NCBI RefSeq assembly: GCF_029887935.1
Contig: NZ_JARXRO010000018.1
Location: 332,330 to 396,329 of the forward strand
Origin: Luteimonas kalidii
GTDB lineage: Bacteria; Pseudomonadota; Gammaproteobacteria; Xanthomonadales; Xanthomonadaceae
Direction of reading: 5' to 3'
Length of the DNA stretch: 64,000 nt
The notes beneath the pieces are model-generated. The model was not told where the DNA came from and searched no databases. It was given only the letters and a program-made list of their open reading frames with translations. The position numbers were made by a program, and so were the translations under genes. Shown here piece by piece: positions 47,451 through 51,710 of this stretch (positions within the stretch are counted from its first letter, which is position 1; each line of letters starts with the position of its first letter).

Positions 47451-49466
47451 ATGCCTGCGCGCATCTTAACGCTGTTGCTGCTGATGCTCTGCGCATGGCC
47501 GGCCCAGGCACGCACCGCCACCGCGCGCATCGACACCATCCGCGCTTCGGGCGCGGAGCTGCACGGCGTCACCGTGCACCTGGACTGGCCCGCCGGGGCC
47601 GCGCGGGGGACGCTGCGGATCGAGGCGGCACGCATCGAGGCGGATGCGTTGGGGTACCGGTTCCGCGACGTCCGCTGGACCTGTCCCTTGGCCTCCGCCG
47701 AGTCGGCGCGCTGGAGCTGCAGCGGTCCATTGCGCGCCGCCGGTGCCGGCGACATGCAGCTGGCGGTGGACCTGTCGAGTGTACGGACGGACGGCACGCT
47801 CGCGAGAGGCGACGCGCGCATCTCGCTGCAACGCACCGCGGCCTCGCCCGATGCCACGCGCCTGCAGCTGACCCGGGTGCCGGTGGCGTGGGCGCAGGCG
47901 CTGCTCTCGAGCGCCTGGTCCGGCGGTCGCCTGGGAACGGGCGAGGCCGATGGCCGGGTGACCTTGCACACGCCGCGCGACCGCCCCGTGCGCGTGGACG
48001 GCGATCTCGCCATCCGCGCGATGTCGCTGGAGTCGGCCGATGCCAGCATCGCCGTCGGCGATCTCGACGGCCGCATCGGCTTCGCTGCGCAGGTGCCGGA
48101 CACCGGCGCCACGCAGGTGTCCGTCGACGGCGAACTGCGCGATGGCGAGATCCTGTTCGGCAGCACCTATCTCGCGCTCGAGGGCCGGCCGCTGCAGTTC
48201 GCGCTGGACGCCCGCCAGGCGGAAGGCGGAGGCTGGGCCATTCCGCGCCTGCAGTGGCGCGACGGCCCCACATTGGCCATGGATGGCAGCGCAGCGCTGG
48301 CCGCCGATGGCGGAGTGCGCGAGCTCGCGCTGGAGGCGCGCAGCACCATGCTGGATGCGCTGCCGGCCCGCTATCTCTCGGGATGGCTCGGCCTGGCCGG
48401 CCTGGGCGAGCTGGCGCTGTCCGGGGCCGCGACGGTCCGGGTCGAGTTCGCGCAGGGAGCGCTGCACACGCTCGATGCAGCGCTGGATGGGGTCGATCTT
48501 GTCGACGCAGCCGGGCGCTTCCGCATCGATGGGCTCGCCGGCGACCTGCGCCTGGCCACCGATGGCGTGGCGGACAGCGAGTTGCGCTGGCGTGGCGGCG
48601 CCCTGTACGACCTGGCGTTCGGTGCGATCCGCCTGCCCATGCGCAGTGCGGATGCCGCACTGCGGCTGCGCGAGCCCGCGTCGCTGGCGATGCTGGGTGG
48701 CCAGGTACGGCTGCCGGAGTTCACCCTGCAGCCACCCGCGCCGGACGCGGGCATGCGCGTGGACTTCGGGCTGGAGCTCGACGCGCTGGACCTGGGCCAG
48801 CTGACCACGGCACTGGGCTGGCCGGCGTTCGCAGGCACGCTCTCGGGCCGTATCCCGAGCGCACGCTACGCCGACGAGCGGCTGGACTTCGAGGGCGGCC
48901 TGGCGGTGGAGGTCTTCGGAGGCCGGGTCGACGTCGGTGCGCTGTCGATGGAGCGCCCGTTCGGCGTCGCGCCCACGCTGTCGGCCGACCTCGCACTGCG
49001 CGATCTCGACCTGCTCGGCATCACCGGCGCGTTCGATTTCGGCAGCATCACCGGCCGCCTGCACGGGCGCGTCGACGGACTTCGGCTGGTGGACTGGACC
49101 GCCACCGCGTTCGACGCCGAACTGCACACCGAACCGGCGCGCGGCGTGCGCCAGCGCATCAGCCAGCGTGCGGTGCAGGACATCTCCAGCGTCGGCGATG
49201 CCTCGCTCGTGAGCAGCCTGCAGGGGCGCCTGATCGCACTGTTCGACGACTTCGGCTACCGCCGCATCGGCATCGGCTGCCGTCTGGCGAACGAGGTGTG
49301 CCGGATGTCGGGCCTGCATTCAGCGGGCGATGGCTTTACTATCGTCGAAGGCGCTGGCGTGCCGAAGCTGCAGGTGGTCGGGTTCAATCGCAACGTCGAC
49401 TGGCCCACGCTGGTGGAACGCCTGGCCGCCGTGGCCGCCGGGGATGTCGCGCCGGTGGTTGAGTGA
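47451..49466 (+). CDS. YdbH-like AsmA-superfamily intermembrane protein
   Basis: A 671-residue exported protein. An N-terminal hydrophobic segment (ILTLLLLMLCAWPAQA) leads into a long series of amphipathic beta strands, with repeated units of the kind GDLDGRIGF, LDALDLGQLTTALG and GTLSGRIPSARYADERLDFEG. The last 120 residues (RGVRQRISQRAVQDISSVG, LFDDFGYRRIGIGCRL, GFNRNVDWPTLVERL) match the YdbH/DctA-YdbH C-terminal region as I recall it. AsmA-like proteins such as YhdP, TamB and YdbH form hydrophobic grooves carrying phospholipids between membranes. The next gene is a DUF1318 lipoprotein, as in the E. coli ydbH-ynbE-ydbL locus. Confidence 0.7.
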   Translation: MPARILTLLLLMLCAWPAQARTATARIDTIRASGAELHGVTVHLDWPAGAARGTLRIEAARIEADALGYRFRDVRWTCPLASAESARWSCSGPLRAAGAGDMQLAVDLSSVRTDGTLARGDARISLQRTAASPDATRLQLTRVPVAWAQALLSSAWSGGRLGTGEADGRVTLHTPRDRPVRVDGDLAIRAMSLESADASIAVGDLDGRIGFAAQVPDTGATQVSVDGELRDGEILFGSTYLALEGRPLQFALDARQAEGGGWAIPRLQWRDGPTLAMDGSAALAADGGVRELALEARSTMLDALPARYLSGWLGLAGLGELALSGAATVRVEFAQGALHTLDAALDGVDLVDAAGRFRIDGLAGDLRLATDGVADSELRWRGGALYDLAFGAIRLPMRSADAALRLREPASLAMLGGQVRLPEFTLQPPAPDAGMRVDFGLELDALDLGQLTTALGWPAFAGTLSGRIPSARYADERLDFEGGLAVEVFGGRVDVGALSMERPFGVAPTLSADLALRDLDLLGITGAFDFGSITGRLHGRVDGLRLVDWTATAFDAELHTEPARGVRQRISQRAVQDISSVGDASLVSSLQGRLIALFDDFGYRRIGIGCRLANEVCRMSGLHSAGDGFTIVEGAGVPKLQVVGFNRNVDWPTLVERLAAVAAGDVAPVVE

Positions 49467-49522
49467 TCGCGTGTTTCAACCGGCCCCGCGCACGCGCGGC
49501 CGCAACGCAACGGGAGCCTGAC

Positions 49523-50128
49523 ATGCGTCGCCTGCTCGGAATGCCGATCCTGCTCGCGCTCGCGCTGTGCGCGTGCGTCACCATCAATGTCTACTTCCCG
49601 GCCGCCGAAGCGCGCGAGGCGGCGCGCGAATTCGTCGAGAACGTGATCGGCGAGGAGGGCCAGACGCCGCCGCCGGTCTCCGAGACCCCGCCTCCGGACG
49701 GCGGCATGGCCCTGCGCATGCCGCGTTTCGATCCCTGGGTCCTGGTCGGTATCGGCAGCGCGCAGGCGCAGTCCTCGCCCGATATCACGATCCGCACCCC
49801 GGCGATCCAGGCGATCCGCTCGCGCATGGAGTCGCGCTTCAGCAGCGCCCTGCGCCCGCATTTCGATTCGGGCGCGCTGGGTTTCGGCGGCGACGGCACG
49901 ATCGTGGTGCGCGATGCCTCGAAGCTCGCGATCAAGGACCGGGTCGCGGTCAATGCCGCGGTCGCCGACGACAACCGCGACCGCAATGCGGTCTATCGCG
50001 AGATCGCCGTCGCCAACGGTCATCCCGAGTGGGAATCGCAGATCCGCGACGTGTTCGCCCGGCAGTGGATCTCCAGTGCGCGTCCGGGCTGGTGGTACCA
50101 GCAGGGCGGTACCTGGAAGCAGAAGTAG
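49523..50128 (+). CDS. DUF1318 (YdbL-type) lipoprotein with YnbE-like N-terminus
   Basis: A 201-residue lipoprotein. The signal MRRLLGMPILLALALCAC gives a lipidated Cys18, followed directly by VTINVYFPAAEAREAAREFV, a strand-helix start similar to the lipoprotein YnbE (TIN-x-N-type strand). After a Pro-rich linker comes a DUF1318 domain as in YdbL: AIQAIRSRMESRFSSALRPHF, DNRDRNAVYREIAVANGH and the ending SARPGWWYQQGGTWKQK. It starts 57 bases after the YdbH-like gene. One protein thus seems to carry both small-partner roles of the E. coli locus; that reading is inference. Confidence 0.75.
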   Translation: MRRLLGMPILLALALCACVTINVYFPAAEAREAAREFVENVIGEEGQTPPPVSETPPPDGGMALRMPRFDPWVLVGIGSAQAQSSPDITIRTPAIQAIRSRMESRFSSALRPHFDSGALGFGGDGTIVVRDASKLAIKDRVAVNAAVADDNRDRNAVYREIAVANGHPEWESQIRDVFARQWISSARPGWWYQQGGTWKQK

Positions 50129-50274
50129 CGCCTGACCGCGGCGGGCCACTTGGCCGCCGTGTCGCGGCGCGGAGCCGGCGGCGCCCGCGCCGGCAGGCTG
50201 GAGACTGGAACATGACGCGTCCGCCGCCCTCGCAGCGACGGGTGCATCCCGCGGGCGCACGGCTGGCGGCGTGC

Positions 50275-50325
50275 GTGCAGGGCGTGCAGGGCGTGCAGGG
50301 CGTGCAGGGCGTGCAGGGCGTGCGA
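50275..50325. repeat. 9-bp tandem repeat
   Basis: Five perfect head-to-tail copies of GTGCAGGGC followed by a partial sixth (GTGCGA), in the non-coding gap before rlmD. Multiple of three, but no convincing reading frame crosses it. Prone to slippage. Confidence 0.9.
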
Positions 50326-50378: not shown

Positions 50379-51710
50379 GTGGCCCGGATCGACCAGACCC
50401 CGTTCGAACTCGACATCCTCGACCTGAGCCACGACGGCCGCGGCGTCGCCCGCCGTGAGGGCGGCAAGACCGTATTCGTCGCCGGCGCCTTGCCCGGTGA
50501 GCGGGTGCTGGCGCGCCAGACGTCGCGCTCGCGCCATTTCGACGAAGCGATGGCGCTGGACGTGCTGCGCGCCTCGCCCGACCGGGTCGCGCCGCGTTGC
50601 CCGCACTTCGGCACCTGCGGCGGCTGCGCGCTGCAGCACCTCGACGAAGCGGTGCAGATCCTCGCCAAGCAGCGCGTGCTGCTGGAGAACTTCGAGCGCA
50701 TCGGCCACGTCTCGCCGGACGCGGTGCTGCCGCCGCTCACCGGCGGCGCCTGGCATTACCGGCGCAAGGGCCGCTTCTCGGTGCGGCGGGTGGAGAAGAA
50801 GGACCGCACCCTGGTCGGTTTCCGCGAGCGCGACCCGCGCTTCGTCGCCGAATTGCATGAGTGCCACACCGTGGTGCCGGCGGTCGGCGCCCTGATTCCG
50901 GTGCTGTCGCAGCTGGTGGACGGGCTGGAGGCGCGGCGGGAGATTCCGCAGATCGAGTTCATCGTCGGCGACGCGACGCCGACGTTCGACGGCGTCGCGC
51001 TGGTGTTCCGGCACCTGCAGCCGCTGGGCGAACGCGATCTCGAGGCGCTGCGCGCCTTTGCACCACGCCACCGGGTGGCGGTGTTCCTGCAGCCCGGCGG
51101 CGTGGATTCCGTGCATCCGCTGACGCCCGCGGCGCCCTCGCTGTCGTTCCGGCTCGAGGACGGGGACGTGTCGCTCGCCTTCCGGCCGCTCGATTTCATC
51201 CAGGTCAACGCGCCGATCAATGCGCTGATGATCGCGCGCGCGTTCGAGCTGCTCGACCTGCGCAGTGAGGACCGCGTGCTCGACCTGTTCTGCGGCCTGG
51301 GCAACTTCACCCTGCCGATGGCGCGTCGCGTGGCCGCGGTGGTCGGGGTGGAGGGCGATGCCGGGCTGGTGGCACGGGCAAGGGAGAACGCCGCGCGCAA
51401 CGGTCTGTCGAACGCCACCTTCCACGCCGCCGACCTGACCCAGGACCAGCGCGGCGCCGCATGGATGCGACAGGGCTTCGACAAGCTGCTGCTCGACCCG
51501 CCGCGCTCGGGCGCGATCGACGTGCTGCGACAGCTGCCGCTGGACGCCTTCGGCCGCATCGTCTACGTGAGCTGCCACCCGGCATCGCTGGCGCGCGATG
51601 CGGGATATCTGGTCAACGAGCGCGGGTGGCGATTGGTGAGCGCTGGGGTGATGGACATGTTCCCGCAGACGGCGCACGTCGAGAGCATCGCGCTGTTCGA
51701 GCGCGGATAG
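50379..51710 (+). CDS. rlmD: 23S rRNA (uracil-1939-C5)-methyltransferase RlmD
   Basis: A 443-residue SAM-dependent enzyme. An N-terminal TRAM domain (ELDILDLSHDGRGVARREGGKTVFV in blocks) is followed by a [4Fe-4S] site with Cys74, Cys80, Cys83 (CPHFGTCGGC) and Cys162 (LHECHTV). The methyltransferase has DLFCGLGNFTLPMA, LLDPPRSGA and the nucleophile cysteine in YVSCHPASLARD. The start is GTG at 50379; upstream ATGs are out of frame or stopped. The last 51 bases of the coding region are repeated exactly 139 bases downstream. Confidence 0.94.
   Translation: MARIDQTPFELDILDLSHDGRGVARREGGKTVFVAGALPGERVLARQTSRSRHFDEAMALDVLRASPDRVAPRCPHFGTCGGCALQHLDEAVQILAKQRVLLENFERIGHVSPDAVLPPLTGGAWHYRRKGRFSVRRVEKKDRTLVGFRERDPRFVAELHECHTVVPAVGALIPVLSQLVDGLEARREIPQIEFIVGDATPTFDGVALVFRHLQPLGERDLEALRAFAPRHRVAVFLQPGGVDSVHPLTPAAPSLSFRLEDGDVSLAFRPLDFIQVNAPINALMIARAFELLDLRSEDRVLDLFCGLGNFTLPMARRVAAVVGVEGDAGLVARARENAARNGLSNATFHAADLTQDQRGAAWMRQGFDKLLLDPPRSGAIDVLRQLPLDAFGRIVYVSCHPASLARDAGYLVNERGWRLVSAGVMDMFPQTAHVESIALFERG
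51653..51703 (+). repeat. 51-bp direct repeat, copy 1 (3' end of rlmD)
   Basis: Perfect 51-base match to 51792-51842. Copy 1 encodes the C-terminal residues DMFPQTAHVESIALFER of RlmD, followed by Gly and stop. Confidence 0.95.

Follow-up and report, generated by a model that had tools for sequence, protein, structure and literature searches.

A merged lipoprotein beside a YdbH-like gene in Luteimonas kalidii: a possible second form of the ydbH-ynbE-ydbL lipid system

Introduction

How phospholipids are delivered to the outer membrane is under active study, and the answers so far come mainly from Escherichia coli. In the ydbH-ynbE-ydbL system of this bacterium two accessory genes follow ydbH, and YdbL has reportedly been proposed to keep the strand of the lipoprotein YnbE from running into aggregates. 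The locus considered here lies in Luteimonas kalidii, at positions 47451 to 50128 of a stretch of 64,000 nucleotides (the window; contig NZ_JARXRO010000018.1, positions 332,330 to 396,329 of the forward strand), where a YdbH-like gene is followed by a single lipoprotein gene. It raises the question of whether one lipoprotein can take the place of both YnbE and YdbL and, if so, whether its chain stays whole, as an earlier note on this DNA had assumed when it proposed a cis-regulated lipid bridge. The most probable answer to the first part, to which a probability of about 0.6 is assigned, is that the locus encodes a second form of the E. coli system with both accessory parts on one lipoprotein. 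The evidence for this reading comprises the gene order, which is that of E. coli (YdbH-like protein, lipoprotein strand, DUF1318); the match of the C-terminal half to the YdbL fold, together with the existence of a split form and the mutual exclusivity with YnbE; and the adjacency of the YdbH-like gene, with which the strand co-erodes.

Organization of the locus and its products

The YdbH-like protein of 671 amino acids (aa), an AsmA-type beta-groove protein judging from a profile match and the model of a relative, is encoded on the forward strand at 47451–49466 (ATG at 47451, stop codon ending at 49466). The gene of the two-part lipoprotein (201 aa) follows on the same strand after a gap of 56 base pairs (bp), at 49523–50128 (ATG at 49523 with GGGAG six bases 5' of it, stop codon ending at 50128). 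Its product begins with a predicted lipoprotein signal peptide and lipidated Cys18 (49523–49576), after which come the motif VTINVYFP in the position of the YnbE strand (49577–49600), an Ala/Glu-rich stretch, a Pro-rich linker and, at residues 106–201 (49838–50125), the DUF1318 domain; the linker holds a signal-peptide-like internal element (49718–49768) with A80-Q-A82 at its end (49760–49768). Residues 27–42 (49601–49648), which follow the strand motif, form a helix in the AlphaFold model of a homologous chain, L134, with block means of 90 and 85. The observation from which the earlier note started, a single lipoprotein gene after the YdbH-like gene, with Cys18, VTINVYFP and a C-terminal DUF1318 part, is confirmed by the open reading frames (ORFs) and by Pfam: the merged lipoprotein beside the YdbH-like gene is real.

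The DUF1318 family (PF07027) matches the C-terminal half with 64.6 bits against a cut-off of 27 (E=1.3e-17). In the L134 model, this part superimposes on 28oj, the crystal structure of YdbL from E. coli, with a Z-score of 9.8 and a root-mean-square deviation (rmsd) of 1.9 Å over 85 of 87 residues, at 26% identity; 28oj is also the top match of a sequence-only search of the Protein Data Bank, at a level that is not significant (E=0.53). The C-terminal half is a DUF1318 domain that, according to the model, has the YdbL fold.

The assignment of the larger protein depends on more distant similarity. A profile of the protein and its relatives (49 members) matches the E. coli-type YdbH profile with E=6.6e-7 and a probability of 92% over 251 columns, while a reversed control reaches 0.011; an earlier run with another alignment had given E=2.5e-4 and 43%. 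When the members of the 49-member alignment are compared with Pfam, four match YhdP (best E 0.0012) and one matches YdbH (E=0.0025). The AlphaFold model of the L134 protein, a relative of 66% identity, is mostly beta and of high confidence, and its top Foldseek matches are to lipid-carrying ApoB100 (E=2e-5); given a TM-score of 0.18 and a large rmsd, this likeness is one of local build only. TamB, YhdP and other AsmA-like chains are not among the 50 matches listed in the fold comparison of the YdbH-like protein or of DUF1318, which is no evidence of a different fold. No solved structure was matched up to E=1 in a sequence search with the 49-member profile, and NCBIfam has no match for either the YdbH-like protein or the lipoprotein. 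On the strength of the profile comparison, the protein is probably a distant homologue of E. coli-type YdbH. The genome (20 contigs, listed as 100% complete) also encodes TamB (E=1.3e-53) and YhdP (E=4.7e-204).

Distribution of the merged form

The merged arrangement is common in the Gammaproteobacteria and not an oddity of the L. kalidii genome. In an even sample of the class (369 genomes), DUF1318 is found in 104 genomes, which comprise 70 with the merged form (69 loci and the window), 30 with YnbE and four with neither; the last are a frameshifted merged gene (G264), a locus made illegible by Ns (G317), another lipoprotein type (G286) and a split form (G323). YnbE is present in 31 and Pfam YdbH in 33 of the 369 genomes, both at E up to 0.001, and at this threshold not one of the 70 merged-form genomes has a match to either; the hypergeometric probability of zero overlap between the merged form and YnbE is P=0.001 if kinship is ignored. 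A separate ynbE homologue is likewise lacking in L. kalidii itself, as the earlier note required: Pfam YnbE (PF13617) has no match in the lipoprotein, and its best match in the genome has E=2.8, with none near the locus.

In a scan of genome contigs, a relative is encoded in 564 of 593 pattern-matched stretches among the matches listed. Eighty scan loci were kept, of which 79 read as merged lipoproteins and one (L180) was dropped because it failed the motif filter. These 79, the class sample and the window make up a set of 149 aligned lipoproteins, and Cys18 is invariant in all of them; on these counts, the merged gene is not a product of chance. The nearest named relatives belong to Luteimonas, Thermomonas and Lysobacter. 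A literature search that covered titles and abstract openings, with most subscription journals outside its coverage, brought up no merged form.

Several further observations concern the occurrence of DUF1318. Among the sampled genomes of the family of L. kalidii (f1) it is patchy, with no match in G012, G165 and G274 and a match in G000 and G772. One genome, G079, has a short YdbL-like DUF1318 gene, for which no YnbE is recognised, in addition to a merged lipoprotein (L041 and L046). In L079, from a draft assembly, the merged gene has a frameshift after the strand segment and before the internal element, possibly through an assembly error. Another type of DUF1318 lipoprotein (L119, L282–L286 and L294), possibly an independent merger, has VDERTA.ENQ.LG a short way behind the Cys and shows no visible internal signal-like element; at L119, L282, L283, L284, L286 and L294 a stop-to-stop ORF of more than 1100 aa lies at the same locus and on the same strand, and that of L119 matches AsmA (E=2.8e-7).

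The split form and the direction of change

In the order to which G323 belongs, DUF1318 occurs in 46 of 150 genomes, and 29 of the 30 best-scoring loci encode a small strand-and-helix lipoprotein and, separately, a DUF1318 protein that has a signal peptide too; L215, the one remaining locus, is of the short E. coli-like type. In 27 of the 29 split loci the flank that was fetched contains a YdbH-like ORF on the same strand, and in G323 itself (L059) one of 674 aa is found upstream of both split genes. In the DUF1318 profile used for the split-gene search one of 149 rows was wrong, and in that row the segment for the strand profile was taken two residues early. The split form has the same CVTINIYFPAAAAEKAAD-type segment and the same type of DUF1318 as the merged lipoprotein, from which it differs in that the two parts are separate genes and DUF1318 has an N-terminal signal peptide of its own. 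Because the halves occur as separate genes in another order, the one merged gene really covers both, in agreement with the earlier note.

With the root placed on E. coli-type YdbL, a DUF1318 tree of 131 rows has the split clade (support 97) nested among merged rows; in an approximately unbiased test, a single merged clade is not rejected (p=0.746), and the tree that contains it is even the better one. A joined tree of YdbH, strand and DUF1318, built from 96 rows of which two lack the YdbH part, places the merged proteins of the class (support 77), the split proteins (96) and a group of four merged rows that come from outside the class (100) on three separate sides. Since merged forms occur both inside and outside the class, one fission is cheaper than two fusions; fission would be the more parsimonious direction, with the root of the tree unfixed.

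Coupling of the strand motif to the YdbH-like gene

The motif CVT[IV]N[VI]YFP is intact in 145 of the 149 aligned lipoproteins. It starts at the lipobox Cys18, and with Val19 at +2, which is no inner-membrane retention residue, the sequence predicts an outer-membrane lipoprotein. The YdbH-like gene adjoins the lipoprotein gene in 133 of 148 loci and in the window. Among the 15 loci where it does not, five on cut-off contigs (L062, L065, L157, L165 and L183) were left out and the genomes of the other ten were searched: the gene lies elsewhere in eight genomes, and it was not found in two, G042 and G183, at E up to 1 (these genomes are listed as 96% and 87% complete). Their lipoproteins, L099 and L104, are two of the four motif deviants; G290, a genome of the same genus, keeps both the YdbH-like gene and an intact motif. 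A similar picture is seen outside the class. The merged lipoproteins L277, L278, L279 and L281 have an intact motif and a YdbH-like gene in the genome, while in L280 (G532, 99% complete) the motif is ruined and no YdbH-like gene was found in the genome; G561, of the same family as G532, keeps both.

Taken together, the motif has survived intact in 144 of the 146 lipoproteins from genomes that contain a YdbH-like gene (134 adjacent, eight elsewhere in the genome and four from outside the class) and in none of the three from genomes in which no such gene was found. This erosion of the motif where the YdbH-like gene was not found ties the strand to YdbH, and the three genomes concerned look like natural knock-outs. 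The merged lipoproteins L099, L104 and L280 have nevertheless been kept despite their eroded motif and the absence of a detected YdbH-like gene; they may have another job or be in decay.

Weighing the assignment

A number of points weigh against reading the locus as a form of the E. coli system. The Pfam model of YdbH (PF11739) matches neither the 671-aa protein nor any other part of the genome, so that the label 'YdbH-like' holds by profile comparison and fails by Pfam. The strand segment is not significantly similar to the YnbE profile, with E=0.077 and a score of 10.9 that at least 10 of 100 column-shuffled controls exceeded; this leaves homology of the strand to YnbE unsupported, and the term 'YnbE-like' used in the earlier note is justified by position in the lipoprotein but not by profile similarity. 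Pairing of the lipoprotein N-terminus with the YdbH-like protein, on which the proposed bridge depends, did not appear in two single-chain AlphaFold models of L134: in a read-through of 884 aa (pLDDT 86.9) VTINVYFP is a low-confidence stretch without a strand, and in a shortened read-through of 304 aa (pLDDT 80.8) it is again of low confidence, partly helix and no strand. Both runs are weak tests of pairing, as the signal peptide was in the chain and paired rows numbered 12 of 90 and 12 of 62. The motif is altered in L098 (by one residue) and L107 despite the presence of a YdbH-like gene, and the three genomes in which that gene was not found represent two lineages only, G042 and G183 being close relatives. 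To our knowledge, there has been no experiment on the merged form.

The N-terminus of the YdbH-like protein belongs among these points. It consists of a short hydrophobic stretch and A-Q-A, possibly a cleavable signal peptide of 20 aa (47451–47510). A pattern [AVTS]-x-A after the hydrophobic stretch is found in 65 of 73 N-termini (the window included, four rows with unsafe starts omitted) and in 29 of 39 of a second set of relatives, which are 39 of the 48 relatives in the alignment, the other nine being outside the name filter. The mean hydropathy of the best 19 residues is 1.79 and 1.78 in the two sets, compared with 2.95 for E. coli YdbH; among 13 E. coli-type proteins, ten have values of at least 2.25 and three with unsafe starts have values of 0.21–0.76. 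What speaks against a cleaved signal is that 53 of the 73 and 28 of the 39 N-termini reach 1.6, the usual mark for a membrane span. In L278 and L281, from outside the class, a longer hydrophobic stretch near the N-terminus was read by eye. The evidence is mixed: in this class the N-terminus may be cleavable and the inner-membrane anchor lost, which makes the inner-membrane location of the YdbH-like protein doubtful. If the anchor has indeed been lost, the idea of a bridge that is held in both membranes becomes less convincing.

The lipoprotein could also be unrelated to YnbE, namely a DUF1318 lipoprotein of other function that happens to be encoded beside an AsmA-like gene. The lack of profile similarity to YnbE would be expected in this case, and the eight of ten tested genomes without an adjacent YdbH-like gene in which it lies elsewhere point the same way. 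The motif, however, co-erodes with the absence of the YdbH-like gene, and neither the split form nor the mutually exclusive distribution with YnbE fits a mere neighbour; this explanation is judged unlikely.

The preferred reading, a second form of the E. coli system, suggests the following mode of action. The YdbH-like protein would be an exported beta-groove lipid carrier, its fold being modelled on a relative and its transport function taken over from E. coli. The lipoprotein would be anchored in the outer membrane via Cys18, as the lipobox and the Val at +2 predict. The strand after Cys18 probably works with the YdbH-like protein, in line with their co-erosion, and may dock on the end of the groove by strand pairing as in E. 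coli. The YdbL-fold domain would be supplied one to one with the strand and, if the proposal for E. coli also applies here, keep it from forming runaway aggregates; a single gene for both parts would fix the ratio of strand to chaperone. The two systems share gene order and parts, the YdbL fold and a distant homology of YdbH. They differ in that E. coli has two accessory genes and L. kalidii one lipoprotein, in that YnbE and the strand segment are not homologous by profile, in the length of YdbH (879 aa in E. coli and 671 aa in L. kalidii, the latter with a possibly cleavable N-terminus) and in the internal A-x-A element, which is a feature of the merged lipoprotein.

One chain or two?

The linker between the two halves varies in length and letters, and in all 149 aligned proteins a mostly hydrophobic run followed by x-Ala immediately precedes the DUF1318 part. 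The last position is Ala in all 149 proteins; two positions before it, Ala is found in 146, Val in two and Thr in one (in the class sample with the window, the last Ala is present in 70/70 and Ala at −3 in 67/70). Only Cys18, Phe25 and six Gly, Trp and Tyr positions of the domain are as invariant as Ala82. Pro, Gly, Ser and Ala are preferred at −5/−4, His, Gln and Tyr at −2 and Gln and Ala at +1, whereas Pro never occurs at +1 (0/149), though it makes up 15.6% of the linker. With small residues at −3 and −1, a hydrophobic stretch before them and no Pro at +1, the element, an invariant A-x-A in a linker that is newly described here, looks like a signal-peptidase I site whose hydrophobic core is weakened. 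Its presence between the halves of all 149 proteins makes the term 'cis-regulated' of the earlier note doubtful, as the chain may not stay whole.

The lipoprotein could accordingly be a precursor that is cut at A-x-A, probably by signal peptidase I, into a short YnbE-like lipoprotein and a free YdbL, which would restore the two-gene state. Ala82 is conserved like Cys18 and the tryptophans of the domain, Ala80 nearly so, and the residue preferences, including the missing Pro, are in keeping with cleavage; Val and Thr at −3 are tolerated at signal-peptidase sites. The element is placed where separate DUF1318 proteins carry their signal peptide, and the modelled fold gives no reason for its conservation, given that this part of the L134 model has low confidence (pLDDT under 50). 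The element persists in L099 and L104 despite their eroded strand motif and the missing YdbH-like gene, and all four motif-intact merged proteins from outside the class retain [AV]-x-A by eye; it is lost in L280, which counts against cleavage. The core argues in the same direction: the mean hydropathy of the best 12 residues is 1.46 for the element (149 proteins, lowest value 0.20), well above the rest of the linker (−0.80; 134 proteins with enough residues) and below the lipoprotein signal peptides (2.14; 149) and the real signal peptides of the split proteins (2.46; 29). A charged residue is found at −15 to −5 in 128 of 149 proteins, and Asp occupies −9 in 35 of 70 rows of the class sample. 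In each of the 29 separate DUF1318 proteins an [AV]-x-A can likewise be located ahead of the domain, with the exact site ambiguous because of Ala runs. The topology would also be awkward, since the part before the element is already in the periplasm. The cytochrome b/c1 protein encoded by Bradyrhizobium fbcH is a bacterial fusion protein that is reportedly cleaved at a signal-peptidase site within the chain; there the internal signal follows a segment that ends in the cytoplasm, whereas in the merged lipoprotein it follows a periplasmic lipoprotein segment, and cutting is putative.

Cleavage of the precursor is held to be possible, if tentatively so. A shade more tentative is the fuller picture of a polyprotein in which a lipid-bridge subunit and its chaperone are exported together and cut internally, so that the aggregation-prone strand would never be made without its chaperone; in one order the gene would have split at this very point, the element becoming a true signal peptide.

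The alternative that comes closest to an even chance, while staying below it, is that the chain remains whole, with the YdbL domain acting in cis on the strand to which it is joined, and that the element has been conserved for some other role, for instance in docking to a membrane or partner. A single reading frame in all 149 aligned proteins is consistent with a whole chain, and the frequent Asp at −9 is unlike an ordinary signal peptide. The strictness of A-x-A, however, is otherwise hard to explain, and an element of low model confidence with neither known partner nor fold offers no role to account for it. The weak hydrophobic core and the topology give rise to a slight lean towards the whole chain.

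A third way to two proteins would be internal initiation, in which a start codon inside the gene yields a separate YdbL that carries a signal peptide of its own. The window has two in-frame ATG codons, which lie 20 and 16 codons before Ala82 and both lack a Shine-Dalgarno-like site, and an ATG lies 11–32 codons before Ala82 in 59 of 149 genes, mostly of the window's own group. In the class sample, by contrast, such an ATG is found in 13 of 69 genes and is accompanied by a Shine-Dalgarno-like site in two; when GTG and TTG are admitted as well, a start codon with such a site is present in five of 69, and over the whole set an ATG with such a site is present in seven of 149. With two of 69 class-sample genes, an internal start codon was rejected as a general mechanism, and its use is considered highly improbable.

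Neighbouring sequence

The next recognisable gene, an RNA methyltransferase by eye, starts at 50379. Between it and the lipoprotein gene lies a perfect 9-bp tandem repeat, GCGTGCAGG, with 5.7 copies at 50273–50323.

Implications for lipid transport

The merged lipoprotein is a real and widespread variant of a known system, and its internal processing is a new and sharper question. In the even sample of the class it is the E. coli form that is rarer, with 31 YnbE genomes and 70 merged ones among 369. For a route that has been studied mainly in E. coli, the merged form would hold bridge strand and chaperone at a constant ratio and indicates which residues are important, and its invariant A-x-A gives a simple yes/no test of mid-chain processing in a secreted bacterial lipoprotein.

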